A program made the position numbers and the translations under genes. From Spartobacteria bacterium (GTDB lineage: Bacteria; Verrucomicrobiota; Verrucomicrobiia; Chthoniobacterales; UBA6821): 63,845 nucleotides of DNA. Shown in pieces: positions 43,610 through 57,722 of the stretch (position 1 is the stretch's first letter; each line of letters starts with the position of its first letter). The notes beneath the pieces were generated by a model that saw only the letters and a program-made list of their open reading frames with translations, did no database searches and was not told the DNA's origin. The stretch lies in assembly GCA_947487385.1 (NCBI GenBank), contig CANKWU010000001.1, forward strand, positions 139,576-203,420, read 5' to 3'.

Positions 43610-45193
43610 CTAGGGATGGGAATTTTCGGGTTTGTAGAATTTGCCAATCGAGAGAAAGACGGGGCTTCTTATGCTGGGGACCAAGACCGGATGAGTCATG
43701 GCAAATTCTGAGAAGAGATCCTGGGGGCAGGTGTAAATACGAGGCCACGATGCGAGCAGGGCTGTCTTTCCAGCCCAAGCCGTGTCGTTGATCCATGGAA
43801 ACCGTATGCGACCATGATCAGGAAGCCAGAGAAGCGGCTCCAGTGATGGTGCGTAGAATGACATAACGCCTGTTAACTGATAGGTGGAGAGGCAGATAAA
43901 ATCTGCTCCAGAGGTTCTGAAATTATCAGCAATCACTTGCGCAACAGCTTCCGGGCCGAGGAATTCCTCAATCCGCGTCAGAAAATCTGACACCCCCTTT
44001 TTTGCCGGAGCCTCCAGATAGGACAAGCCGGGAACCTTGCCTATGAAGGAGAGGTCGGGCGCGAAGTTCCGAATGGAGAGCGGTGAGTTTTTGGGAAGCA
44101 GCAGGTTGGAGACACCAATGACGGCTCCCACATCGGCGATCAGTAGGACGATGACAGCTGCCTTCCTCCATCCAGAACCATAGTTGTCCCAATCCCCTGC
44201 GACCATGATCAGGGCAGTGATAAATGCGACCATCGGCCAGTTTGCCTCGATGTGGGCCTTGGCCGCCGAGTATCCGAAGAAGACCACGACTGTCCAGAAA
44301 AAGACCCCCAGGAAGCGGAAGCGGGGATCATTCATGCGTGTCACGGCAGTCCGGAAGCAAAGCAGCCCCAAGATGGGTGAGACCAAGACAATAAGAAACG
44401 CACTATAGTCGCCGAGGTTCTGAAAATTGATCAGCGTCCGATGCTCGTTTCGTAATCCATGATGGAGCTGATGGGTGAAGGAGGCCCAATCGTGAGACGC
44501 GTTCCACCAGATTACAGGAGTGCAAAATACTAGGGAGACGAGTCCCGCGATCATCATGCCGGACAAGAGCTGTTGCCGTCTGCCGGGACTTAACACCCAG
44601 AGCATAAGGAGAGCGCCGAAGTACAGCACCATGGTGTATTTGGAGAGCATTCCGATACCTGCCGCGAGGCCGGAGGCCCCCCACCATCCGATGCTTCCCC
44701 CCTCCCGATATCCACGCCAGGCAAAGAGAACCGCGAAAGCCCAGGCTGGAACCAGGAAGGTGTCAGGGGTCATCAGCAGGGCATTTCCAGCGAAGATCGG
44801 AGCCAGAAGCAGGAGAATGCCCGCCCGGTTTCCTGCCGATGGACCGAAGAGTTCTCTTCCCAGTACGCGACCGGCAAGTGAAAGCAGGATGCCGGAAACG
44901 ATAGCCCAGAAACGGACGGCCAGCGTCGTGTGGCCAAGAAGTATCCGGCTCGAGGCAATCAGCCATGCGGTGAGGGGGGGGTGGTCGAAGTAGCAGGCTT
45001 GGGGATGAAGCGACCATTCCCAGTAGTAGCATTCATCAAAAATCAGGCCCAGCTTCCAGGCGACAAGGACTTTCCAGAAAGTAACGATTGCTAAGATCCC
45101 CCAGAACCATCGGGTCGAGTTGATCCAAGACATGGGTTGAGTGTGCAGGCTCGGAGGAGTCGGAGGAGTATCTAGGCGGGAGGATTTGGACAT
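43610..45193 (-). CDS. GT39/ArnT-like polyprenyl-linked glycosyltransferase
   Basis: A 527-residue multi-spanning protein from ATG 45193 (a later ATG at 45133 is also possible). The first loop has LIFDECYYWEWS and HPQACYFDHPPLTAWL, the dolichyl/undecaprenyl-phosphate mannosyltransferase pattern with acidic DE and the DHPP motif. About ten helices follow, then a periplasmic tail. It transfers a sugar from a lipid carrier to an unknown acceptor at the outer face of the inner membrane. Confidence 0.85.
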   Translation of the reverse strand: MSKSSRLDTPPTPPSLHTQPMSWINSTRWFWGILAIVTFWKVLVAWKLGLIFDECYYWEWSLHPQACYFDHPPLTAWLIASSRILLGHTTLAVRFWAIVSGILLSLAGRVLGRELFGPSAGNRAGILLLLAPIFAGNALLMTPDTFLVPAWAFAVLFAWRGYREGGSIGWWGASGLAAGIGMLSKYTMVLYFGALLMLWVLSPGRRQQLLSGMMIAGLVSLVFCTPVIWWNASHDWASFTHQLHHGLRNEHRTLINFQNLGDYSAFLIVLVSPILGLLCFRTAVTRMNDPRFRFLGVFFWTVVVFFGYSAAKAHIEANWPMVAFITALIMVAGDWDNYGSGWRKAAVIVLLIADVGAVIGVSNLLLPKNSPLSIRNFAPDLSFIGKVPGLSYLEAPAKKGVSDFLTRIEEFLGPEAVAQVIADNFRTSGADFICLSTYQLTGVMSFYAPSLEPLLWLPDHGRIRFPWINDTAWAGKTALLASWPRIYTCPQDLFSEFAMTHPVLVPSIRSPVFLSIGKFYKPENSHP

Positions 45194-45418
45194 AAAACCT
45201 CGTGATTTCGTGGCGGAGGATGGAGTCGGCAACCTGTCAGGTCAAAGAGAATGTTGAGAAAGTCTACGAAACCAAAAACTGTCAAGTTGTCAGGTCAGAT
45301 GAGGAGGAAAAGTGTTACAAGAACTAAGAAGCGATCGTCAATCGAAGGTCAATGTGGAGAAAGCAAGTCGCTGGTAGGTATTTAGGGCAGTACTTCCTGC
45401 GGAAGTAAATCGAGGCAG

Positions 45419-45640
45419 GTGAACCTCTTCTGGCGCTGGGTCGGCGAGTACGCGGTTCGTCAGGGAGATTGGAAATATATTTTCCTCGTCGGTGACAATC
45501 GCCAATACCTCTTTAATCTGGCAAGCGATCCGGAAGAACAACACAACCTTCTTACTCAGCAACCCGAGATGGCAAAGTCGCTCCATGCGAGGTTAGAACA
45601 CTGGAGTCAGGGGTTGATGCCCGCAGGACTAGTTGGTCCT
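45419..45640 (+). pseudogene. Sulfatase remnant (C-terminal fragment)
   Basis: The frame encodes EYAVRQGDWKYIFLVGD and YLFNLASDPEEQHNLL, which are the C-terminal signatures of sulfatases. The catalytic part, including CxPxR, is missing upstream, where only non-coding sequence is seen. The frame stays open to 45796 but the later part does not resemble sulfatases. The rest of the 45233-45806 gap contains two copies of TGTCAGGTCA (near 45235 and 45289) and nothing else recognised. Confidence 0.7.
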
Positions 45641-45806: not shown

Positions 45807-47300
45807 ATGAAAAAACCAACCACCATCCTGGCCTCGTTTTGTCTGCTGGCTGCCCTGCTGCTGACGCAGTTGGCCGCGCTGAGCGCCACTGAATCGAAGC
45901 TTCGCAATATCGTGTTGATCCTGGCGGATGACATGGGTAACGATATGAGTGGTCTGGGAACGCCTGGCCTTGCCACGCCGAACCTGGACCAACTTGCCCG
46001 TGACGGGGTCCTTTTTACACGCGCGTTTTCTGCGGCGGCGGTATGTTCTCCCAGCAGGGCGGCCATTCTGACTGGTATGTTTCCGCACAGCAATGGTCTC
46101 TGGAGCAATACCCAGAACGCGGGGTTGGACTATCCCCGCATTGCCGATAAACCTGAGCGCCCGAGCCCGGTGCGGAGCGCCATACGTGAGGATATCCCGA
46201 CGCTGGTCGAGCTTCTCAAGGAGCGCGGATTTTACAGCGCCATTACCCAGAAATCCCATATTCAGCCAGCCTGGCGTTTTCCGTTCGACAAAGGCTTTCC
46301 CTATCGCAATAAACCCGGAGAGTATCAGAGGCTCGTCGGGGAAGTCAAAAATGCAGCAGGGGAAAGACCGTTTTTTCTGATGGCGAATATTGCGTCGCCG
46401 CATCGTCCCTTCAAAGGACACCTTGCTGCCAACGGGCTGGGGTATGAACCTGCTACCATTGACCCTGAAAAGATCAGTGTTCCGTCCTGGCTGCCGGATA
46501 CGCCGCTGATGCGCAAGGACCTGGCGCAGTATTATGCCTGTGTGCAGATCACGGATGCCTGTGTGGGGGCGGTGCTTGCCGGTCTTAAGGAACAGGGCTT
46601 GCTGGAAAACACCCTGGTGATTTTCACGTCCGATAACGGGTTTGGCTACCCACGTGGTAAGACTAGCGGGTATGCTGCGGGTTTGCACATGCCCTTTCTC
46701 GTGGCGGGTCCAGGCGTCCGGCGCAATGAACGATGTGCGGTGCCGGTTTCCTTGGTCGACATCATGCCGACCATGCTAAGTGCGGTGGGGTTGCCTGTGC
46801 CTGAGACCGTACAGGGGTTGTCCTTATGGCCGTTGCTCAAGGGGCAGGCCAAAGACTTTCCGCGGAACGTGATGATGGCTTCGGAGTCCGAACATTATTT
46901 AGCGCGCGCAGTCTGCGACGGCCGGTATTACTACGTGCGCAATGTGGTGAAGCCGTCAGGCGGCTTCAAGCGCCCGCCGATGAATGCGGATCTGTATGAT
47001 GAGAAAGTGTGGGATAACCGCGCGTACCGTGCTACGCTTGAGGCGCAAAAAGAGCATCCGGTTAAATATGGGATGCTTGCGGATTTCGTCGACGGCCACA
47101 TACCGGATGAGGAACTGTTCGACCTCAACAGTGACCCGTATTGCATGAAGAACGTGCTGTCAGATCCCGCCTTGACGGCCACTCTGGAAACGCTGCGCGC
47201 AAGCCTGGTGGATTGGCGGAAGCGGACGGATGACCGAGATACGCAGGAAGCCCTGCGGCTGAAATTCCCGAAACCGCTAGGGACTGTGAGCAAGGAATGA
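45807..47300 (+). CDS. Secreted sulfatase, sulfamidase-like type
   Basis: A 497-residue family S1 sulfatase. A signal peptide of ~28 residues is followed by VLILADDMGND (calcium site). The formylglycine motif is C80-S-P-S-R. Further sites are QKSHIQPAW (Lys/His), FTSDNGFG and a C-terminal DLNSDPY. It resembles heparan N-sulfatase-type enzymes. Its signal peptide and flanks are unlike the six other sulfatases, so it was probably acquired separately. It needs a formylglycine maturase, which is not in the window. Confidence 0.9.
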   Translation: MKKPTTILASFCLLAALLLTQLAALSATESKLRNIVLILADDMGNDMSGLGTPGLATPNLDQLARDGVLFTRAFSAAAVCSPSRAAILTGMFPHSNGLWSNTQNAGLDYPRIADKPERPSPVRSAIREDIPTLVELLKERGFYSAITQKSHIQPAWRFPFDKGFPYRNKPGEYQRLVGEVKNAAGERPFFLMANIASPHRPFKGHLAANGLGYEPATIDPEKISVPSWLPDTPLMRKDLAQYYACVQITDACVGAVLAGLKEQGLLENTLVIFTSDNGFGYPRGKTSGYAAGLHMPFLVAGPGVRRNERCAVPVSLVDIMPTMLSAVGLPVPETVQGLSLWPLLKGQAKDFPRNVMMASESEHYLARAVCDGRYYYVRNVVKPSGGFKRPPMNADLYDEKVWDNRAYRATLEAQKEHPVKYGMLADFVDGHIPDEELFDLNSDPYCMKNVLSDPALTATLETLRASLVDWRKRTDDRDTQEALRLKFPKPLGTVSKE

Positions 47301-47560
47301 ACCCCGAGTTTCCCGTTTTTCTCGATAAATATCTTTATGCGTATAGGCAAATTCTGCCATCTGCAATATACCAGCAATAAATTTATTCCGTCTGTAGGCG
47401 GTATGGAAAGAGGAGACTCGTGTATAAAGACAAGCAGAAGGCTGAAAGAAATTATAATGCGTTCTATCCTCAGTTTGTTCGTGGTGCGGCCACAAGGGAC
47501 GCTTATGGTCGGCCTGAAGCCGCGTGCGGCATGGACTGTATGATTGCAAACCGGAAGAAT

Positions 47561-47640
47561 AAAGTGCAGCGAAGGATATCAGACAGGACCTGGAAAAGAA
47601 AAGTGACTCTCTTTAGGAAAAAAAATATTGTTCAGAATTT
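47561..47640 (+). pseudogene. Remnant of a sulfatase 3' end (junction copy)
   Basis: This stretch is highly similar to the last ~60 bp of the two sulfatase genes ending at 51059 and 52681 (GTGCAGCGAAGGA, then AAAAGTGACTCTCTTTAGG). No sulfatase body precedes it. It marks a deleted gene or a copied junction. The remaining 47301-47560 sequence is A/T-rich, with a short open frame of unknown meaning. Confidence 0.7.
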
Positions 47641-49449
47641 ATGAAACACCCCCTCATTACCCTCGCCGCCCTGCTGCTAACACCACTAGCATCCCACGCC
47701 GCGGATGCCGCCGCCAAACCCAACGTCATCATTGTCTTGGTCGATGACGCGGGTTACGGCGACCTGTCGTGCCACGGCAATCCCGTGCTCAAGACACCGC
47801 AACTCGACCGGCTGCACGCCGAGAGCGTGCGCTTCACCGATTTTCATGTCGCGTCGATGTGTACGCCGACGCGCGGCCAGCTCATGACCGGTGTTGACTG
47901 CCTTCGCAACGGCGCGATGAATGTCAGCAGCGGGCGGACTTTTTTACGCCGCGAATTTCCGACCATGGCGGATTTATTTGGCGCGGGAGGGTATCGCTGC
48001 GGCATCTTCGGCAAGTGGCACCTGGGTGACAACTATCCTTACCGGCCGCAGGATCGAGGGTTCCATGAAACCATTACCTTTCCCTCGTCGCACATAGGCA
48101 GCGCGCCCGATTTCTGGAACAATAACTACTTCGACGACACCTACACTCACAACGGCAAGCGCAAGCAGTTCAAGGGTTACACTACCGACGTCTTTTTCAA
48201 CGAGGCCATGAAATGGATGGGCCAACAGGCGGCGGCCCAAAAGCCGTTCTTTTGTTACCTGCCGACCGCAGCCGCGCATTCGCCGCTCAATGTGCCGCAG
48301 AAATACAGCGATCTCTACAAGGACCAGAATCCCAACGTCGCGAAGTTCTTCGGCATGATCGCCAACATCGATGAGAACATGGCTCGTCTGGAGACGTTCC
48401 TGGCGTCGAATGGCCTGCGCGAAAACACCATCGTCATCTTCATGACCGACAACGGCGGTACTCTCGGAGTGCCGGTTTTCAACGCCGGCATGCGCGGGAG
48501 AAAGACCGAACTCTGGGAGGGCGGGCATCGCGTGCCATGCTTCATTCGCTGGCCCGGCGGCAAATTCCGAACGCCCAGCGACGTGGCCGAGTTGACCGAG
48601 GTTCAGGACATCCTGCCGACATTGGCCGAGCTGTGTTCGTTGCCGAAGTCGAACGCGCGTTTCGATGGCATGAGCCTTGCTCCGCTGCTGCGAGGCCAGA
48701 GCAATGTCCTGCCAGAGCGCATGCTGGTGGTCAACTTCAGCCGCATGCAAGGTCCCGTGCCGACCAAAGATGGGGCTGCCGTGCTGTGGAAACGCTGGCG
48801 GCTTTTAAAAGACCGCGAATTGTATGATCTGACGACCGATCCGGGACAGAAAGAGAACGTCATCGGGAAGCATCCCGAAGTGGCGGCCAAGATGAGCGCC
48901 CATCTCGACGCTTGGTGGCGAACTGTAGAGCCTTCCATCAATGACTTTGGTGCCGCGATCATCGGCAGCGACGCCGAGAACCCCAGCCTGCTGTCACCAC
49001 CTGAATGGCAAGACGTGTTTTTCGACCAGGGCGCCCAAGTACGCCGTGGCCAGAAGAGCAACGGCGAGTGGAACGTCATCGTCGATCGTGCCGGTAGTTA
49101 CGAGTTCGAGTTGCGCCGCTGGCCGCGCGAGGCCGATGTGCCGATTGCCGCCGGTCTGCCTGTCCATAAGCACACCCTCGGGCAGTTCCCAGCCGGCGTG
49201 GCACTCCCTATTGCCAAGGCACGTGTGAAGATCGGCAGCGTCGATGTCAGCAGTGCGGTGTCGGCCGATGCCAAACAGGTGTCGTTCACGGCGGAACTGC
49301 CGGCCGGGCGGACGAAACTCCAAACCTGGTTCTACGACGGCGACGACAAGGAGATCTGCGGTGCCTATTATGTAAGCGTCCGCCGGCTTGATTGCGTGTC
49401 AGAAAAAAGTGACTCACTTTGGGAAAAAAATATTGTTCAGAATTTATGA
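47641..49449 (+). CDS. Secreted sulfatase, type A
   Basis: A 602-residue S1 sulfatase. Signal peptide MKHPLITLAALLLTPLASHA, then VDDAGYGDLSCHG. The formylglycine site is C74-T-P-T-R; FGKWHLGD (~120), HSPLNVP (catalytic His) and MTDNGG complete the site. A C-terminal beta-domain (~470-590) follows. The tail reads KSDSLWEKN and ends in a stop codon that overlaps the next ATG (ATGA). Its closest relative in the window is the gene at 52706. Confidence 0.93.
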   Translation: MKHPLITLAALLLTPLASHAADAAAKPNVIIVLVDDAGYGDLSCHGNPVLKTPQLDRLHAESVRFTDFHVASMCTPTRGQLMTGVDCLRNGAMNVSSGRTFLRREFPTMADLFGAGGYRCGIFGKWHLGDNYPYRPQDRGFHETITFPSSHIGSAPDFWNNNYFDDTYTHNGKRKQFKGYTTDVFFNEAMKWMGQQAAAQKPFFCYLPTAAAHSPLNVPQKYSDLYKDQNPNVAKFFGMIANIDENMARLETFLASNGLRENTIVIFMTDNGGTLGVPVFNAGMRGRKTELWEGGHRVPCFIRWPGGKFRTPSDVAELTEVQDILPTLAELCSLPKSNARFDGMSLAPLLRGQSNVLPERMLVVNFSRMQGPVPTKDGAAVLWKRWRLLKDRELYDLTTDPGQKENVIGKHPEVAAKMSAHLDAWWRTVEPSINDFGAAIIGSDAENPSLLSPPEWQDVFFDQGAQVRRGQKSNGEWNVIVDRAGSYEFELRRWPREADVPIAAGLPVHKHTLGQFPAGVALPIAKARVKIGSVDVSSAVSADAKQVSFTAELPAGRTKLQTWFYDGDDKEICGAYYVSVRRLDCVSEKSDSLWEKNIVQNL

Positions 49450-49515
49450 AACACCCCCTCATTACCCTCGCCGCCCTGCTGCTAACACCACTTCTCTCCC
49501 ATGACGCGGAGGCCC
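49395..49515 (+). repeat. Sulfatase junction module (representative copy)
   Basis: A recurring unit made of a gene-end tail (AAGTGACTCACTTTGGG, or CTCTCTTTAGG in other copies), an A-rich spacer, ATGAAACACCCC and the signal peptide codons. Other copies are at about 47561-47700, 51004-51150, 52624-52770 and 54481-54620; at 56029-56140 only the leader and linker part is present. Two leader subtypes occur: LITLAALLLTPL (47641, 49446, 56029) and LLLLAAVLLTPL (51083, 52706, 54535). Confidence 0.8.
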
Positions 49516-51059
49516 AAGCCGCGGATTCGACTAAGGTAGAGCCCGGAAGCAAGAAGCCCAACGTAGTCTTCATTCTTGCCGATGATCTGGGATGGAAAGA
49601 TACCAGCCTGTACGGCAGTTCGTTCTACGAGACGCCGAATATCGACCGGCTGGCGAAGCGAGGGATGCTGTTCACGCAGGCCTATGCAGCGAGTCCACTC
49701 TGCTCGCCCACGAGAGGGAGCATCCTGACTGGCCTCTATCCTGGGAGGATCGGGATTACTACGCCTTGCGGCCATGAACCGGCTGTGCGGCTTGAGGCCA
49801 CACTTGCGGCGAAGGCCCAGCCCTATCAGCGGGCGCTACAGCCAACCAGCGCATCGCGGCTGAAGACTGAGTATTACACGCTGGCCGAGGCCTTCCACGA
49901 TGACGGCTACGTGACCGGGCACTTCGGAAAATGGCATTTGGGACAGGAGCCCTACAGTCCGCTCCAGCAGGGCTTCGACGTGGATGTGCCGCACACTTCA
50001 GGACCTGGGCCGGCCGCAAGCTATCAGGGGCCATGGAAATTCCCTCCCCAACTGAACTTTATCGGTCAACCCGGCGAGAATATCGAAGACCGTATCGCAG
50101 AGGAGGCGATAAAATTCCTGAAAACGAACAAGGACAAGCCGTTCTACCTGAATTATTGGGCATTCTCGGTGCATGCGCCTTGGGACAGCAAACCGGAGGT
50201 GGTTGAAAAATATCGCGGCAAGGCAAAACCTGATAGTCCCCAGAGGAATCCTGTTTATGGGGCCATGGTGGAAACCCTCGACAAGAATGTCGGCAAACTG
50301 CTGGATACGCTGGACGAACTCAAGATCGCCGATAAGACGATCGTCGTTTTCTTCTCCGATAATGGAGGAGTGGACTGGGGAGGGGGAGACGCTTGCCTGA
50401 TTCCGGGCTACGGCGAGATCCCGGCCACGAGCAACGCCCCGTTGCGCGGTGGCAAGGCGACAATCTATGAGGGCGGCACGCGCGAGCCGTGTGTGGTGGT
50501 CTGGCCCGGAAAGGTGAAGCCCGGCTCGCAGAGCGACGCGCTTTTCTCGAGTGTCGACTGGTATCCCACGCTACTTGATATGACCGGGGTGACGCCCAAG
50601 CAGGTTGTGAATTTTGACGGAGTGAGTGAAGTGCCGGCATTGCTGGGAAAGGGTGCCCCTCGCGACACGGCATTCTGCTTTTTTCCGCATTACGTTAGAG
50701 GTACTTTTCCAGCCGTGTGGGTTCGACGAGGCGACTGGAAGCTCATCCGCTTCTTTTGTGATAGCCCGGAGCAGACCGACCGCTTTGAGCTCTATAACCT
50801 GAAGGAGGATCTGGGAGAGTCAAAGAACCTTGCGGCGGAGCATCCGGACAAGGTCAAGGAGCTTGACGCCCTGATCAGTGAGCACTTGAAGGAGATCAAT
50901 GCCGTGATTCCGGTGAAAAGCCCGACTTTTGATCCCTCTGCAAAGATGCCCCCAGTCCCCACGGTGGAGCTGAGAAAGAAGAAGCCTGCTGCCACGAACA
51001 ATGAAAGTGCAGCGAAGGACATCAGGCAGAACCTAGAAAAGAAAAGTGACTCTCTTTAG
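49446..51059 (+). CDS. Secreted sulfatase, type B, first copy
   Basis: A 537-residue S1 sulfatase. The signal peptide is followed by a short linker (TKVEPGSKKP) and FILADDLGWKD. The formylglycine motif is C86-S-P-T-R; GKWHLG (~161), SVHAPW (catalytic His ~243) and SDNGG (~304-308) are present. Its start ATG overlaps the preceding stop. It is nearly identical to the next gene except at clustered positions near these motifs. The C-terminus ends EKKSDSL. Confidence 0.94.
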   Translation: MKHPLITLAALLLTPLLSHDAEAQAADSTKVEPGSKKPNVVFILADDLGWKDTSLYGSSFYETPNIDRLAKRGMLFTQAYAASPLCSPTRGSILTGLYPGRIGITTPCGHEPAVRLEATLAAKAQPYQRALQPTSASRLKTEYYTLAEAFHDDGYVTGHFGKWHLGQEPYSPLQQGFDVDVPHTSGPGPAASYQGPWKFPPQLNFIGQPGENIEDRIAEEAIKFLKTNKDKPFYLNYWAFSVHAPWDSKPEVVEKYRGKAKPDSPQRNPVYGAMVETLDKNVGKLLDTLDELKIADKTIVVFFSDNGGVDWGGGDACLIPGYGEIPATSNAPLRGGKATIYEGGTREPCVVVWPGKVKPGSQSDALFSSVDWYPTLLDMTGVTPKQVVNFDGVSEVPALLGKGAPRDTAFCFFPHYVRGTFPAVWVRRGDWKLIRFFCDSPEQTDRFELYNLKEDLGESKNLAAEHPDKVKELDALISEHLKEINAVIPVKSPTFDPSAKMPPVPTVELRKKKPAATNNESAAKDIRQNLEKKSDSL

Positions 51060-51082
51060 GAAAATAATATATCCTAAAATTT

Positions 51083-52681
51083 ATGAAACACCCCCTTCTG
51101 CTCCTAGCGGCCGTATTGCTGACACCGCTGCTCTCCCATGCCGCGGATGCTACTAAGGTAGAGCCCGGAAGCAAGAAGCCCAACGTAGTCTTCATTCTTG
51201 CCGATGATCTGGGTTGGAAAGATACCAGCCTGTATGGCAGTTCGTTCTACGAGACGCCGAATATCGACCGGCTGGCGAAGCGAGGGATGCTGTTCACGCA
51301 GGCTTATGCAGCGAGTCCGCTCTGCTCGCCCACGCGAGGGAGCATCCTGACTGGCCTCTATCCCGGGAGGATCGGGATTACTTGGGCTTGTTGCCATGAA
51401 CCGGCTGTGCGGCTTGAAGCCACACTTGCGGCGAAGGCCCAGCCCTATCAGCGGGCGCGAGAAGTAGTCAGCGCATCGCGGCTGAAGACTGAGTATTACA
51501 CGCTGGCCGAGGCCTTCCACGATGACGGCTATGTGACCGGGCACTTCGGAAAATGGCATTTGGGACAGGAGCCCTACAGTCCGCTCCAGCAGGGCTTCGA
51601 CGTGGATGTGCCTCATTGGTGGGGAAGTACGCCGGGCGGGTGCTACCAGGGGCCATGGAAATTCCCTCCCGAACTGAACTTTATCGGTCAACCCGGCGAG
51701 AATATCGAAGACCGTATGGCCGATGAGGCGATAAAATTCCTGAGAACGAACAAGGACAAGCCGGTCTACCTGAATTACTGGGCGTTCTCCGTTCATGGGC
51801 AGTGGGACAGCAAACCGGAGTTGGTTGAAAAATATCGCGGCAAGGCAAAACCTGACAGTGCCCAGAGGAATCCTGTTTATGGGGCCATGGTGGAAACCCT
51901 CGACAAGAATGTCGGCAAACTGCTGGATACGCTGGACGAGCTCAAGATTGCCGATAACACGATCATCGTTTTCTTCTCTGATAATGGCGGGGTGGACGAT
52001 CCAGGAGGGAAACTTTGCCTGATTCCGGGCTACGGCGGTATTCCGGTCACGAGTAATGCCCCGTTGCGCGGTGGCAAGGCGACAATCTATGAGGGCGGCA
52101 CGCGCGAGCCTTGTGTGGTGGTCTGGCCCGGAAAGGTGAAGCCCGGTTCGCAGAGCGACGCGCTCTTTTCGAGTGTCGACTGGTATCCCACGCTACTTGA
52201 CATGACCGGGGTGACGCCCAAGCAGGCTGTGAAATTTGACGGAGTGAGTGAAGTGCCGGCATTGCTGGGAAAGGGTGACCCGCGCGACACGGCATTCTGC
52301 TTTTTTCCGCATTACGTTAGAGGTACTTTTCCAGCCGTGTGGGTTCGGCGAGGCGACTGGAAGCTCATCCGCTTCTTTTGTGATAGCCCGGAGCAGACCG
52401 ACCGATTTGAGCTCTATAACCTGAAGGAGGATCTGGGAGAGTCAAAGAACCTTGCGGCGGAGCATCCGGACAAGGTCAAGGAGCTCGACGCCCTGATCAG
52501 TGAGCACTTGAAAGAGATCAATGCCGTGATTCCGGTGAAAAACCCGACTTTTGATCCCTCTGCGAAGATGCCCCCAGTCCCCACGGTGGAGCTGAGAAAG
52601 AAGAAGCCTGCTGCCACGAACAATGAAAGTGCAGCAAAGGACATCAGGCAGAACCTAGAAAAGAAAAGTGACTCTCTTTAG
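51083..52681 (+). CDS. Secreted sulfatase, type B, second copy
   Basis: A 532-residue paralogue of the previous gene. The formylglycine motif is C81-S-P-T-R. The last ~200 residues differ by only about three substitutions, whereas the segments TWACC, REVV, WWGSTPGGC, HGQW and DDPGGKL replace different residues at the same places in the first copy. The signal peptide is of the second type (LLLLAAVLL). The start is ATG 51083, 23 bp after the previous stop. Confidence 0.94.
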   Translation: MKHPLLLLAAVLLTPLLSHAADATKVEPGSKKPNVVFILADDLGWKDTSLYGSSFYETPNIDRLAKRGMLFTQAYAASPLCSPTRGSILTGLYPGRIGITWACCHEPAVRLEATLAAKAQPYQRAREVVSASRLKTEYYTLAEAFHDDGYVTGHFGKWHLGQEPYSPLQQGFDVDVPHWWGSTPGGCYQGPWKFPPELNFIGQPGENIEDRMADEAIKFLRTNKDKPVYLNYWAFSVHGQWDSKPELVEKYRGKAKPDSAQRNPVYGAMVETLDKNVGKLLDTLDELKIADNTIIVFFSDNGGVDDPGGKLCLIPGYGGIPVTSNAPLRGGKATIYEGGTREPCVVVWPGKVKPGSQSDALFSSVDWYPTLLDMTGVTPKQAVKFDGVSEVPALLGKGDPRDTAFCFFPHYVRGTFPAVWVRRGDWKLIRFFCDSPEQTDRFELYNLKEDLGESKNLAAEHPDKVKELDALISEHLKEINAVIPVKNPTFDPSAKMPPVPTVELRKKKPAATNNESAAKDIRQNLEKKSDSL

Positions 52682-52705
52682 GAAAAAGAATACTTTCCAA
52701 AACTT

Positions 52706-54538
52706 ATGAAACACCCCCTGCTGCTCCTAGCGGCCGTATTACTGACACCGCTTGCCTCCCAGGCTGCGGATACCGCTGCCAAACCTAACGTTATCATTGT
52801 CATGGTCGATGACGCCGGTTATGGCGACTACTCATGCCACGGCAACCCAGTGGCGAAGACGCCGAATGTGGACAAGCTTCACGACGAAAGCGTGCGGTTT
52901 TCCGACTTTCACGTTGCTCCCATGTGCACTCCCACTCGCTCACAACTGTTGACCGGTGTGGATTGCCTGCGCAACGGTGCGAGCGTTGTCCACGGATCAC
53001 GGATGTTGCTTCGCCCCGACTTACCGACGGTGGCCGATATCTTCGCGGCTAACGGCTATCGCACCGGGGAGTTCGGCAAATGGCATCTGGGTGACAATTA
53101 CCCCTTCCGTCCGCAGGACCGCGGCTTCCAAGATGTCCTCTATTTCAACTCGGCATTTATCGGCGAGTCTGACGATGCATGGTGCAACGATTATTTAGAT
53201 CCGTGGCTCCGCCACGCCAACGGCAAGCCGGTCAAGTTCAAGGGCTACATAACCGACATTCTGTTCACGGAAGCCATGACGTGGATGGATCAGCAGCATA
53301 AAGGCGGCGAGCCCTTCTTCTGCTATTTGCCGTTAAACCTAATCCATACCCCGCTGATTGTGCCGGAAAAGTATTGCGAGCCCTACAAGGATCAGACACC
53401 GGACCACCAGAAAATCCTCGGGATGCTGGCCAATGTGGATGAGAATATGGGGCGACTGGATGCTTTCCTCCGCCAGTCAGGTCTGCGTGACAACACGATC
53501 GTGATTTTTCTCAATGATAACGGCAGCGCTCACATGTCAGACCTCTACAACGCCGGGATGCGCGGGAGCAAGGGGTCACCTTGGGAGGGCGGCCATCGCT
53601 CACCATTGTTCGTCCGCTGGCCAGCGGGTGGACTGCGGCCGTCGGGTGAAGTGCCGGGCCTAGCACAGGTTCAGGATCTGGTACCGACATTGATCGGTCT
53701 GTGTGGGCTGAAGCAAACGCTAGATGCCAAATTTGACGGCACTAACCTCGCACCGGTTCTGCTTAATGCAGGACAGGAGCCGCCTGACCGGATTCTGGTT
53801 ATTGCCCCAGGAGATCCCCCGAAACCTAGACCGGGCATCGATCTTGCGCAAAAACCGTTTACCGTCATGTGGGGCCGCTGGCGTCTTGTGGAAAAGGCAC
53901 TTTATGATCTGGCCACCGACCCGGGCCAGCAGAAGAATCTGATCGCCGAACAACCGGAGATCGCCGCGAAGCTTAGCGCAGCCTATGCCCAGTGGTGGAA
54001 AGGCGTGGAGCCCTGGACGACCAAACGCAGCGCCCTCATCGTCGGCGACGACCATGAGAATCCAACCACACTGTTGCCATCGACGCAATACGATACGAAG
54101 TGTCTCTCTCCCGAAATGTTGCGCAAAGGCACCTACACGATGGATCAATGGTTGATCCAAGTGGCGCGCGACGGTAACTACGAATTCACTCTCCGCCGAT
54201 GGCCGCAGGAGGCGAGTACCGCCATCAGTGGCACGGTGCCTGCCTGGAACTCCGCACTTGGCAACTGCCCACTTTCTGCCGGCAAGGCCTTCCCCATTGT
54301 GAAGGCGCGGCTGTCCGTTGGTGATTTCAAGGGGGAAAAAGACGTCGTTCCGTCCGATACGTTCGTCTCGTTCACCGTTCCCCTGAAGCAGGGGCAGACC
54401 ATGCTGCGAGGCACCTTCCTCGACGATCAAGGCAAGGAGATCTGCGGCGCCTATTACGTCAGCGTTCACCGGCTTGACCGCGTGCCAGAAAAAAAAGTGA
54501 CTCACTTTAGGAAAAAGAATCTATTCCAAAACCTTTGA
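52706..54538 (+). CDS. Secreted sulfatase, type A, second member
   Basis: A 610-residue S1 sulfatase related along its length to the gene at 47641. Formylglycine motif C74-T-P-T-R; FGKWHLGDN, IHTPLIVP and LNDNGS form the rest of the site. A C-terminal beta-domain follows. The tail is out of frame with that of its relative and reads VTHFRKKN, because of a longer A-run in the junction. The stop overlaps the next start as TTGA. Confidence 0.93.
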   Translation: MKHPLLLLAAVLLTPLASQAADTAAKPNVIIVMVDDAGYGDYSCHGNPVAKTPNVDKLHDESVRFSDFHVAPMCTPTRSQLLTGVDCLRNGASVVHGSRMLLRPDLPTVADIFAANGYRTGEFGKWHLGDNYPFRPQDRGFQDVLYFNSAFIGESDDAWCNDYLDPWLRHANGKPVKFKGYITDILFTEAMTWMDQQHKGGEPFFCYLPLNLIHTPLIVPEKYCEPYKDQTPDHQKILGMLANVDENMGRLDAFLRQSGLRDNTIVIFLNDNGSAHMSDLYNAGMRGSKGSPWEGGHRSPLFVRWPAGGLRPSGEVPGLAQVQDLVPTLIGLCGLKQTLDAKFDGTNLAPVLLNAGQEPPDRILVIAPGDPPKPRPGIDLAQKPFTVMWGRWRLVEKALYDLATDPGQQKNLIAEQPEIAAKLSAAYAQWWKGVEPWTTKRSALIVGDDHENPTTLLPSTQYDTKCLSPEMLRKGTYTMDQWLIQVARDGNYEFTLRRWPQEASTAISGTVPAWNSALGNCPLSAGKAFPIVKARLSVGDFKGEKDVVPSDTFVSFTVPLKQGQTMLRGTFLDDQGKEICGAYYVSVHRLDRVPEKKVTHFRKKNLFQNL

Positions 54539-55989
54539 AACACCCCCTTTTGCTCCTAGTGGCGGTATTGCTGACACCGCTGCTCTCCCACGCCGCGCAG
54601 GCCCACGCTGCGGATGCGACTAAGGTAGAGCCTGCAAGCAAGCCGCCCAACGTCATTGTCATTCTTGCCGATGACCTCGGCTACGACGACGTAGGGTGCT
54701 ATTGGACCACGGACAAGCACCCGGGCTTCGAGAAGATCCAGACACCGAACATCGACCGGCTCGCCGCCGAGGGCGTCCGGTTCACCGACTACTACGCACC
54801 ATCCTCCGTCTGCACCCCGTCCCGCGCGGCACTCATGACCGGCTGCTACCCGGAGCGGGTGGGCATGTCTAGATTCGGACCCGAAGGCATGGTCGTACTC
54901 ATGCCAAATCACATGGAGGGGCTGAACCCCGACGAGGTCACCCTGGCTGAGATCTTGAAGAAACGCGGCTACGCCACCGCCTGCGTTGGGAAGTGGCACC
55001 TCGGGCACCTGGCCCCATTCTCCCCACGTCAGCATGGCTTCGATTCGTTTTATGGGCTGTTGTTCCCCAACGACGTGACACCCTTAGTCCTCTACCGCGA
55101 TGAGACTGTTATCGAGCCGAAGGCCGACCAGAAGACGCTCACCGAGCAGTTCACGGAAGAGGCGGTGAAGTTCGTGCGGGCGAAGCGCGAGGAACCGTTC
55201 TTCCTCTATCTCGCCTACAGCGCGCCGCACATGCCGCTGCATCTCCCAGACCGCTTGCGTGGCAAATCAGCGCGGGGCTTGTATGGCGACGTCGTGGAGC
55301 ACTTGGACTCGGGCGTCGGCGAGGTTTTGAAGGCACTCGATGAAACTGGGCTCGCAGACCAAACACTCGTGGTCTTCACCTCGGACAATGGGCCGGACAC
55401 GCGCGGACCCTACGACAAGCGCGGACAGGCCTTCCCCCTGCGGGCGGCCAAGGCGACCACGCGGGAGGGAGGCGTGCGTGTTCCGTGCGTGATGCGCTGG
55501 CCGGGTCACATCCCTGCCGGCATGGTCAGTAGCGAAATCGCGTCCTCGATGGACCTCCTACCGACGGTGGCCGGGATCGCTGGAGCGCAGCCTCCGCAGG
55601 ACCGGATCATCGATGGAAAGGACATTCTCCCGCTGATGACCAAGCCCGGTGCGCCGAGCCCTCACGAGGCGTTCTTCTACTACTACCATGAGAATCTAGA
55701 GGCGGTCCGCAGCGCGAACTGGAAGCTCGTCTTCCCGCGCACTGCAATGGCCGACACCCCCTATGAGGGGAAGAAGGGAGCCGCGAAGCCTGCACTTCTG
55801 CCCGAGGCGCTCTACGATCTCGCGGCGGACGTGAGCGAGACGACGGACGTGATTGGAAAACACCCAGAGGTTGCGGCGCGCCTGCGCGCCCTGGCGGAGC
55901 GGATGCGCGAGGATCTGGGAGACTCCGCCACCAACCAGAAGGGCAAGAATCGCCGCTCCGTGGGCCGCGTGCCTGCTTCGGGCCAGTGA
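54535..55989 (+). CDS. Secreted sulfatase, type C (arylsulfatase A-like)
   Basis: A 484-residue S1 sulfatase. It begins with TTG at the position where its neighbours have ATG; the signal peptide then follows. LADDLGYDDVG, the formylglycine motif C93-T-P-S-R, GKWHLGH, APHMPLH (catalytic His) and FTSDNGPDTRG are present. It resembles arylsulfatase A/GALNS-like enzymes. The linker ATKVEPASKPP is the same as in the next gene, although the catalytic bodies differ. Confidence 0.92.
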   Translation: MKHPLLLLVAVLLTPLLSHAAQAHAADATKVEPASKPPNVIVILADDLGYDDVGCYWTTDKHPGFEKIQTPNIDRLAAEGVRFTDYYAPSSVCTPSRAALMTGCYPERVGMSRFGPEGMVVLMPNHMEGLNPDEVTLAEILKKRGYATACVGKWHLGHLAPFSPRQHGFDSFYGLLFPNDVTPLVLYRDETVIEPKADQKTLTEQFTEEAVKFVRAKREEPFFLYLAYSAPHMPLHLPDRLRGKSARGLYGDVVEHLDSGVGEVLKALDETGLADQTLVVFTSDNGPDTRGPYDKRGQAFPLRAAKATTREGGVRVPCVMRWPGHIPAGMVSSEIASSMDLLPTVAGIAGAQPPQDRIIDGKDILPLMTKPGAPSPHEAFFYYYHENLEAVRSANWKLVFPRTAMADTPYEGKKGAAKPALLPEALYDLAADVSETTDVIGKHPEVAARLRALAERMREDLGDSATNQKGKNRRSVGRVPASGQ

Positions 55990-56028
55990 TGCCGCTGGAG
56001 GAATAGACCTATCAGTAACACAAGACCT

Positions 56029-57528
56029 ATGAAACAAACGATTCCCCTCATAACCCTCGCCGCTCTGCTGCTGACACCGCTTCTCTCCCACGCTGCGGAT
56101 GCGACTAAGGTAGAGCCTGCAAGCAAGCCGCCCAACGTCATTGTGATCCTTGCAGATGATCAAGGCTATGCGGACTTATCGATCCAACATCAGGTCCCCG
56201 ACATCAAAACGCCGAACATCGATGCGCTCGCCGCACAGGGCGTGCGCATGACGGCCGGTTACGTCACCGCACCGCAGTGCAGTCCCTCGCGTGCAGGTCT
56301 GATCAGCGGTCGCTATCAACAGAAGTTCGGTCTCGACAGTATCGCCGATGATCCGATGCCGCTGGAAGAACGAACCATCCCGAAACGCCTCAAGGAGGCA
56401 GGCTATGTCAGCTGCCAAGTTGGCAAGTGGCATCTTGATCCGAATGCGACCTCCGTCAAATGGGCCCGCAAGAATTTCCCCGAACTCATCCCCGGCAAAG
56501 ATGGCCGGGTGGCGATTCCCGGACAATCTATCCGGCAGTTTTCCCCTCTGGCACAAGGTTTCGACGAATGTTTCGAAGGCGAGGAGCACAAGTACTTCGC
56601 CACGTACGATTGCGACGGTAAGACACTCGATCCGCACGGAACGATGATTAATCAACCCGGTTATCGGTTGGAGACGCAGACCGCCGCCGCCCTAGCCTTC
56701 CTCAAGCGCCATCACGACCAGCCATTCTTCCTCTATCTTGCGTATTACGGCCCGCATGTCCCGCTGGAGGCCACGGAGAAATATCTCTCCCGGTTCCCCG
56801 GACCGATGGCAGAACGCCGGCGCACTGCACTGGCGATGCTTTCTGCGATTGATGACGGGGTCGGTCAACTGACCGCCGCACTCAAGGAGTATGGTATCAG
56901 TGATAACACGCTCATCGTTTTCACTTCTGACAATGGAGCTCCGCTCGGTGCACACAACGGGCAACCCATGGCCGATGTCCTTCCTGTCAATAAGTCGGGA
57001 GCGATCTGGGACGGCTCGCTGAACACTCCCTGGGTTGGAGAGAAAGGGATGCTGGCCGAGGGGGGCATACGTATGCCGTTCATCATGAGCTGGCCGGGAC
57101 GGTTGCCTGCAGGCAAAGTGTACGATCAGCCGGTCAGCACCCTCGATATCGCCGCCACAGCCGTTGCCCTTGCCGGTATTCCTTCTGATGATCGTCTCGA
57201 CGGGGTGAATCTCATCCCGCACCTGACTGGAGAGGATCAAAAGCCGCCACACGAAAGCCTGTACTGGCGTTTCCAGGACCAAGCTGCCGTACGCAGTGGA
57301 AAATGGAAATATATTCAGGCCGGTAGCGAGGCAAATTACCTCTTCGATGTGACCAGCGACGAACATGAAAAACACAACCTTATCACCGAACATCCCGAGA
57401 TCGCCCGCGACCTGAAGGCGAAGCTTTCCGACTGGACCAGCCGTCTCGCCCCTCCGGGCGATCCTGATCACCTGCTCAATGCGCAGGAGAAGAAATGGTA
57501 TCAGTATTATTTTGGCCTGACTGACTAA
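56029..57528 (+). CDS. Secreted sulfatase, type D
   Basis: A 499-residue S1 sulfatase. The leader is of the LITLAALLLTPLLSHA type with a short different start (MKQTIP). LADDQGYADLS and the formylglycine motif C84-S-P-S-R follow; GKWHLDPN, YGPHVPLE (catalytic His) and FTSDNGAPLG are present. The preceding 40 bp lack the junction repeat seen before the other genes, so only the leader and linker are shared. It is the last gene of the island. Confidence 0.92.
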   Translation: MKQTIPLITLAALLLTPLLSHAADATKVEPASKPPNVIVILADDQGYADLSIQHQVPDIKTPNIDALAAQGVRMTAGYVTAPQCSPSRAGLISGRYQQKFGLDSIADDPMPLEERTIPKRLKEAGYVSCQVGKWHLDPNATSVKWARKNFPELIPGKDGRVAIPGQSIRQFSPLAQGFDECFEGEEHKYFATYDCDGKTLDPHGTMINQPGYRLETQTAAALAFLKRHHDQPFFLYLAYYGPHVPLEATEKYLSRFPGPMAERRRTALAMLSAIDDGVGQLTAALKEYGISDNTLIVFTSDNGAPLGAHNGQPMADVLPVNKSGAIWDGSLNTPWVGEKGMLAEGGIRMPFIMSWPGRLPAGKVYDQPVSTLDIAATAVALAGIPSDDRLDGVNLIPHLTGEDQKPPHESLYWRFQDQAAVRSGKWKYIQAGSEANYLFDVTSDEHEKHNLITEHPEIARDLKAKLSDWTSRLAPPGDPDHLLNAQEKKWYQYYFGLTD

Positions 57529-57672
57529 ATCTAACACAGGGTAGAAATCAAAAACTTTCAGGAGCGTTCTACTCGCTATCTATCTACCACGTCACACCGT
57601 TGTGACTTGGTTTCATGCTTTCCTAGCGTTCATCGGTGCAACAGCACTGCTATCCACTGATATCGAGTCTCT

Positions 57673-57722
57673 AAGCAGTTAAGCGGTATAGCAGTTAAGC
57701 AGTTAAGCAGTTAAGCAGTTAG
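57673..57722. repeat. 8-bp tandem repeat (AGCAGTTA)
   Basis: About five partly interrupted copies of AGCAGTTA run into the 3' end of folD, so the last folD codons and its stop are formed by repeat sequence. The remaining 57529-57672 gap has no recognisable feature. Confidence 0.75.

Follow-up and report, generated by a model that had tools for sequence, protein, structure and literature searches.

Two closely related sulfatase genes, here called A and B, lie in tandem within an array of seven sulfatase genes in the window, which is the whole 63,845-nucleotide stretch of Spartobacteria bacterium DNA that was analysed. Coordinates are window positions (genome coordinates minus 139575). The features of the array are as follows.

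45807 to 47300, plus strand: neighbouring sulfatase g1, 25 to 37% identical to other members
47563 to 47616, plus strand: 3'-terminal remnant of a third gene of the A/B type, adjoining g2 upstream; 16 of 17 residues equal the A/B tail, followed by a stop
47600 to 47614, no strand assigned: near-palindrome AAAGTGACTC[AT]CTTT in the module preceding g2
47641 to 49449, plus strand: neighbouring sulfatase g2, with an upstream/leader module that agrees with that of A at 85/88 nt
49446 to 51059, plus strand: sulfatase A, 537 aa, with a family-typical pocket (translation and codon alignment; PF00884, 9.4e-56)
51083 to 52681, plus strand: sulfatase B, 532 aa, with a derived pocket and catalytic residues as in A (codon alignment; PF00884, 2.8e-53)
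52706 to 54538, plus strand: neighbouring sulfatase gC, with 54% amino acid identity to g2 and a leader resembling that of B
54535 to 55989, plus strand: neighbouring sulfatase gD, with a TTG start
56029 to 57528, plus strand: neighbouring sulfatase gE

As judged from their sequences, A and B, which are 92 to 93% identical, are S1 formylglycine-dependent sulfatases. Both have the PF00884 domain and the maturation motif C/S-x-P/A-x-R (CSPTRGSILTG in each), and formylglycine-generating-enzyme (FGE) genes were found in the same genome. The catalytic and metal residues of A, assigned by alignment, are D46, D47, C86, R90, K162, H164, H243, D305, N306, and K337, of which D46, D47, D305, and N306 correspond to the D-D-D-N calcium ligands and H243 and K337 to the catalytic His and Lys of PDB entry 9FO1. 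The reading frame and these residues are intact in B. The AlphaFold2 models had a mean pLDDT of 89.7 (A) and 90.4 (B), and the best PDB match of the A model was 9fo1 (Foldseek TM-score 0.81/0.92, 43% identity), the κ-carrageenan sulfatase AMOR_S1_16A.

A and B are like this enzyme and the S1_16 enzymes BT3057/BT3796 (7OZ9/7OZA) in the S1 fold, the formylglycine motif, the calcium ligands, the catalytic His and Lys, and the placement of loops at equal alignment positions. However, both copies have extra residues after the first of the blocks described below and in the loop after DNGG, and both lack W79 and H149 of 9FO1 at the aligned positions. The residue aligned with W79, the S1_16 0-subsite Trp, is P107 in A and A107 in B, and P189 occupies the His149 position in both copies; H164 aligns with the S1_16 His125. 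According to PMC10154612, the 0-subsite Trp is indispensable to two S1_16 enzymes of Bacteroides, and only 37% of the sequences in this subfamily conserve it.

The earlier note had claimed that short stretches differ wholesale between the two copies, and the codon alignment located all five of them, listed here with A residue numbering.

Block 1, plus strand, A 49761 to 49772, B 51383 to 51394: residues 106-109, TPCG in A and WACC in B; aligns with the D78-W79 region of 9FO1
Block 2, plus strand, A 49836 to 49847, B 51458 to 51469: residues 131-134, LQPT in A and REVV in B; family-variable, matching no known pocket element
Block 3, plus strand, A 49995 to 50021, B 51617 to 51643: residues 184-192, TSGPGPAAS in A and WWGSTPGGC in B; lies at the H149 loop in the alignment to 9FO1
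Block 4, plus strand, A 50175 to 50180, B 51797 to 51802: residues 244-245 after H243, AP in A and GQ in B; aligns with the two residues after catalytic H201 of 9FO1
Block 5, plus strand, A 50376 to 50393, B 51998 to 52015: residues 311-316, WGGGDA in A and DPGGKL in B; corresponds in the alignment to 9FO1 residues 266-276, a variable loop that includes E270

Through these changes B gains Trp at 106, 184, and 185 and loses W311, G-P-G-P, and H-x-P. A frameshift-pair origin was ruled out for blocks 1 to 4, which align best by in-frame substitution without gaps. It is possible for part of block 5, for which an alternative alignment has a compensating +1/-1 base indel pair and in which two silent changes depend on the alignment.

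The differences are clustered, as had been proposed, rather than evenly spread. Replaced codons form 11 adjacent pairs, against a maximum of 9 across 20,000 random placements, and shuffling the replaced and silent labels among variable codons gave p = 0.011 for the clustering. Clustered differences as such also occur in other family pairs, with an adjacency z of 6.1 for A-B and values above 3.5 in 5 of the 20 closest family pairs (highest, 4.6). The 25 block codons contain 20 replaced and 3 silent codons, compared with 15 replaced and 37 silent in the rest of the body (Fisher p = 3e-6, a descriptive value and not a test because the blocks were picked from the differences). Accordingly, dN is 1.07 in the blocks; outside them dN is 0.014 and dS is 0.122. 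The proposal that the changes are mostly amino acid changing thus holds within the blocks but not gene-wide, where silent differences are slightly ahead (47 versus 39 replaced in 532 aligned codons). The N-terminal leaders differ by a 5-residue indel and have a pS of 0.47. The last ~200 residues, described earlier as almost identical, differ at only four positions (387, 389, 404, and 492).

Comparison with homologs indicated which copy had changed. These homologs, 64 in number, came from best-match lists (the best 80 of 477 loci in one, ≤30 loci per list in the others). Model alignments covered 33 sequences, with L049 omitted for a stop and L059, L062, L066, L072, L080, L088, and L093 dropped to keep the list short. 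The maximum-likelihood tip length for the scaffold was 0.0272 for A and 0.0087 for B; for the blocks it was 0.605 for A and 4.45 for B. At the 20 replaced block positions, outgroups favoured A at 11 and B at 4, with 5 undecided, and at the 15 replaced positions outside the blocks they favoured A at 3 and B at 10, with 2 undecided (Fisher p = 0.021 for blocks versus outside). B departs from near-invariant positions, namely F233 (64/64 homologs), P245 (63/64), P107 (63/64), and G188 (62/64), and has Asp at residue 311, which is aromatic in 58/64. A B-type pocket was absent among the aligned homologs from the best-match lists (44 in one alignment and 64 in a larger one). Thus, B has the more ancestral scaffold and radically derived blocks; the radical changes are concentrated in this copy.

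Departure from near-invariant positions would also be expected if constraint had been relaxed and the active site of B were decaying toward a pseudo-enzyme. This explanation is very unlikely, because the B scaffold has evolved more slowly than that of A, the catalytic and metal residues and the reading frame are intact, and decay is not expected to be confined to blocks. An assembly or consensus artefact might be suspected, given that tandem copies 93% identical are difficult to assemble and that the assembly has 48 contigs. However, chimeric joins rarely give several short in-frame blocks in one gene with catalytic residues intact, and we regard an artefact as extremely improbable.

Most of the blocks appear to line the active-site pocket. 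PMC11760155 names pocket elements of 9FO1, the closest solved enzyme, and four of the five blocks align with them: block 1 beside W79, block 3 with the H149 loop, block 4 with the residue pair following H201, and block 5 with loop 266-276; W106 of B aligns one residue off W79. In a pocket set taken from that paper, with windows chosen after the differences were known and without N369/Q370, 14/39 pocket positions differ versus 20/421 others (p = 4e-8). With all residues named in that paper ±2, which adds aligned residue 418, the counts are 15/63 versus 19/397 (p = 5e-6). The named pocket residues without windows gave no significant excess (4/22 versus 30/438, p = 0.07). Among control pairs with ≥85% identity elsewhere, the pocket was less conserved in 0/13 for both windowed sets and in 3/13 for the named residues alone; in pairs with lower scaffold identity it was less conserved in 7/72 (75 to 85%) and 12/164 (65 to 75%). 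Of the 2016 pairs of all distances, 1109 had a pocket identity no higher than that of A-B (0.64). These results support the suggestion that substrate-contacting loops diversified after duplication, with contact itself predicted from alignment to the solved relative.

Focal remodelling of the B pocket after tandem duplication is probably the best reading of these observations. A and B stem from one S1 sulfatase gene that was duplicated in tandem within the array, recently on this reading; the solved enzyme closest to it is an S1_16 κ-carrageenan sulfatase. A would have retained the family-typical pocket. In B, strong purifying selection would have preserved the scaffold and catalytic residues, whereas the loops lining the pocket would have been exchanged, most likely because positive selection favoured another sulfated sugar or another sulfate position. 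A and B differ mainly in short loops that for the most part seem to line the pocket, and therefore one copy probably kept the old substrate and the other was rebuilt for a different one. The duplication itself, the clustering and asymmetry of the differences, the conservation of the catalytic residues, and the alignment of four blocks with known pocket elements are shown by the data, whereas we infer that selection drove the change in B and that the substrate specificities of A and B differ. The pair has the mark of a neofunctionalised duplicate, a recent duplication with asymmetric change at sites that are functional by alignment.

One alternative, also raised in the earlier note, is gene conversion, with the B blocks imported as short tracts from at least one other sulfatase. 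Multi-nucleotide in-frame replacements of equal length, a richness in transversions (transitions/transversions 13/26 in the blocks and 33/20 elsewhere, p = 0.011), and raised silent divergence in the blocks would be consistent with import. However, the search for donor segments among the sulfatases of this genome and in the assembly found none. The blocks are not carried by six of the eight other sulfatases of this genome, which were compared in an eight-protein alignment (A, B, and these six) that kept only L133 of L130, L132, and L133 and lacked the C4 and C7 sulfatases. At the C4 and C7 loci, as in the window, DNA matches to the short blocks were no better than shuffles. Block 3 of B (27 nt) has no other match in the assembly at ≤3 mismatches, and identity of the B blocks to the 64 homologs is ≤0.28, although a rarer donor may be missed because these homologs come from best-match lists. 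Conversion from other sulfatases of this genome thus found no support, and import from any donor is decidedly unlikely.

A variant of the pocket-remodelling explanation on another time scale is that the duplication is older and that A-B gene conversion homogenised the scaffolds, with selection protecting the pocket loops so that these persisted as divergent islands. The flanks of the blocks, previously described as intact, are enriched in silent differences (15/40 within 8 codons of blocks versus 7.0 expected, p = 0.0016; p = 0.0006 to 0.03 with each block omitted in turn), and the flanks have therefore been partly altered at the DNA level. Codon-by-codon selection alone does not predict such a rise in silent changes in and near the blocks. 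Shielded conversion would also fit a pS that falls to 0.077 over the last 137 codons and reaches 0.375 in the blocks, as well as leaders and intergenic modules that are common to neighbouring array genes. However, without block 5 the enrichment fades at the wider distances of 10 and 15 codons (p = 0.11 and 0.47), two silent changes in block 5 depend on its alignment, and long identical runs gave no conversion signal (longest gap among non-block differences 114 nt, null mean 129, p = 0.65). We consider this variant possible but doubtful.

Theory for neofunctionalisation of tandem duplicates under gene conversion describes near-identical scaffolds with divergent islands at functional sites. A and B have this pattern of scaffold and islands, but they are a bacterial pair for which conversion is a rival reading. 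Focal remodelling of B is a process of a known kind, of which this pair is an unusually clean example. PMC6501874 describes the glucosinolate sulfatases of the eukaryote Plutella xylostella, arylsulfatases that differ in substrate spectrum and whose genes are clustered, duplicated, and under positive selection. Both copies changed concertedly there, in contrast to the bacterial pair, in which chiefly one pocket was remodelled. The literature searched, in which subscription journals were thinly covered, yielded no previous account of a bacterial sulfatase pair of this kind. How to predict the sulfate ester that a given sulfatase removes is still an open problem. A natural pair about 25 loop codons apart on a 97% identical scaffold would allow loop-by-loop tests of specificity, and it would add a bacterial case of neofunctionalisation in which the relative rates of scaffold and pocket evolution are reversed between the copies.

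Unequal crossing-over at a repeated intergenic-plus-leader module probably enlarged the array, because the leader of A matches that of g2 and the leader of B resembles that of gC. It is possible, but unlikely, that the array serves as a specificity workshop, in which duplication via this module and the swapping of pocket loops as discrete short cassettes on a near-identical scaffold would yield new desulfation specificities in few steps, with no gradual drift. The near-palindrome of the module has further exact copies at 49406-49420, 51043-51057, 52665-52679, and 54494-54508, each shortly before a sulfatase start. The assembly contains five exact matches, all in the array, and with ≤2 mismatches there are 14 forward and 12 reverse matches, compared with 10 and 7 for the reversed control.

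Seven sulfatase genes, all on the + strand and all with PF00884, occupy positions 45807 to 57528 on the single contig that holds the whole window (assembly of 2.05 Mb, 48 contigs). PF00884 matches in the assembly number 11, two of them pieces of the array gene g1, giving ten genes, and there are four formylglycine-generating-enzyme matches. The array has one close pair, A and B; its remaining pairs are 25 to 54% identical.

Close pair of sulfatase genes
49446-51059, + strand, sulfatase A, PF00884
51083-52681, + strand, sulfatase B, PF00884

A fragment of another sulfatase's C-terminal region lies at 45422-45628, flanked by genes at 43610-45232 and 45807-47300, and is 46% identical to the last array gene, gE (tblastn, 8e-19). 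An 8-nt unit, TAAGCAGT, is repeated in tandem (6.2 copies, 57672-57721) between gE and folD.

Codon alignment of A and B recovered every block of wholesale difference listed in an earlier note on this DNA (blocks 1 to 5: residues 106-109, 131-134, 184-192, 244-245, and 311-316 of A). The accompanying claim, that the changes are mostly replacing, held within the blocks but not for the whole body (the gene without its N-terminal leader), in which 35 of 509 codons are replaced and 40 are silently changed. The blocks contain 20 of the 35 replacements. Nei-Gojobori estimates were dN 1.07 and dS 0.52 in the blocks versus 0.014 and 0.122 in the rest of the body, and adjacent replaced codon pairs numbered 11 versus a maximum of 9 in 20,000 random draws, which is clustering beyond random placement; because the blocks were chosen from the differences, these figures are descriptive and not a test. 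Clustering by itself is not unique to this pair: the adjacency z was 6.1 for A-B, and among 20 family pairs, the closest ones listed, it exceeded 3.5 in five (highest, 4.6).

In both sequence and fold, the best match among solved structures is 9FO1, that of the kappa-carrageenan sulfatase AMOR_S1_16A. Excerpts of the 9FO1 paper name W79, H125, H149, H201, K287, N369, and Q370 around sugar or sulfate, as well as the loop 266-276 with E270 and R273 (PMC11760155). In pairwise alignment W79 falls at residue 107, H149 at 189, H201 at 243, and E270 at 312. Because named residues align there, blocks 1, 3, 4, and 5 would lie on pocket elements, whereas block 2 matched no named element in that alignment. 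Thus, the earlier proposal of loop diversification after duplication is supported by sequence comparison for four blocks but not for block 2. Among 39 pocket positions, taken from the excerpts and from our own windows drawn after the A-B differences were already known, 14 differ, versus 20 of 421 elsewhere (p=4e-8). The corresponding counts were 15/63 versus 19/397 for all residues named in the excerpts ±2 (p=5e-6) but only 4/22 versus 30/438 for those residues alone (p=0.07). Models of A and B were of good quality, with mean pLDDT values of 89.7 and 90.4.

The windowed pocket was less conserved than the rest in none of 13 family pairs with other positions at least 85% identical (3 of 13 for named residues alone), in 7 of 72 pairs at 75 to 85%, and in 12 of 164 at 65 to 75%. 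Therefore, a conserved pocket is the usual rule among close members, and A and B invert it. The case is real and well localized, and it is best read as neofunctionalization of a tandem duplicate through pocket remodeling. This is an already known kind of process, described for insect sulfatases among others (PMC6501874); a comparable bacterial sulfatase pair was not found in the literature searched, a result that counts only as weak evidence for absence.

Catalytic and metal residues are intact in both copies, and thus their chemistry is presumably the same, with the difference lying in the fit of the sugar. Relative to A, B has gained three tryptophans (106, 184, and 185) and lost one (311). 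In two Bacteroides S1_16 enzymes a 0 subsite tryptophan stacks against galactose, and replacing it with alanine abolishes activity (PMC10154612). A similar role for W106 of B is only a guess, because it is one residue off the aligned position.

Four outgroups (L046, L136, L137, and L163; 65 to 72% identity) agreed with A at 11 of the 20 replaced block positions and with B at 4 (5 undecided). At the 15 replaced positions outside the blocks they agreed with A at 3 and with B at 10 (2 undecided; Fisher p=0.021, decided positions only). This asymmetry is not a product of block choice, because block choice treats both copies equally. In a maximum-likelihood tree of 16 proteins, tip lengths were 0.0272 (A) and 0.0087 (B) outside the blocks and 0.605 (A) and 4.45 (B) inside them, the last a saturated estimate from 25 columns. 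In a nonredundant set of 64 homologs (identity at least 48%), F233 is present in all 64, P245 and P107 in 63 each, and G188 in 62; at these four positions B carries V, Q, A, and T, respectively. Tryptophan occurs at 184 in 21 of the 64 and at 106 or 185 in none, and residue 311 is aromatic in 58.

Codon-by-codon positive selection accounts for the replacements but not for raised silent divergence near the blocks: of the 40 silent codons, 15 are no more than 8 codons away from a block, where 7.0 would be expected (p=0.0016). Leaving out each block in turn gave p=0.0006 to 0.03 at this distance; without block 5, p was 0.11 at 10 codons and 0.47 at 15. Either of two processes, shielded conversion and the import of tracts, could account for these silent differences. 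A long-run signal of conversion between A and B was absent, and no donor was found for the blocks in the window or other sulfatase loci of this genome, nor for block 3 across the assembly. The suggestion that the blocks were converted from other sulfatases of the genome is thus not supported by these searches.

A near-palindrome, AAAGTGACTC[AT]CTTT, precedes five genes of the array, and these exact matches are all that the assembly contains.

Near-palindrome copies and relic
47600-47614, near-palindrome preceding g2
49406-49420, near-palindrome preceding A
51043-51057, near-palindrome preceding B
52665-52679, near-palindrome preceding gC
54494-54508, near-palindrome preceding gD
47563-47616, relic of an A/B-type C-terminal tail (third gene of A/B type, 3' end), immediately ahead of g2

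A further copy with 1 mismatch lies ahead of a sulfatase on contig 4. In A and B the motif doubles as code for the last residues of the protein, and it may act as a regulator site or as a module for recombination. The upstream-plus-leader region of A matches that of g2 at 85 of 88 nt, and the leader of B is similar to that of gC. These similarities and the relic fit an array shaped by repeated duplication and loss via the common upstream module.

Among 22 family genomes searched, only this one had a match to B at E≤1e-60. Among the matches listed, relatives reach 71% identity within the order and class but outside the family, and 63% in the remainder of the phylum sample; horizontal gain and repeated loss are both possible. 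At four homologous loci (L045, L047, L048, and L016) the A/B-like gene is only 49 to 70% identical, and gC-, gD-, or gE-like neighbors are 76 to 88% identical to those here, except for a gE-like gene in L048 (39%) and a g1-like gene in L047 (28%); more distant neighbors there are similar genes, putative orthologs only. A C-terminal tail, KD[IV]R...EK (A 521-537, B 516-532), follows a linker of low model confidence. It is recognizable in L045, L046, L047, and the relic and perhaps serves in docking.
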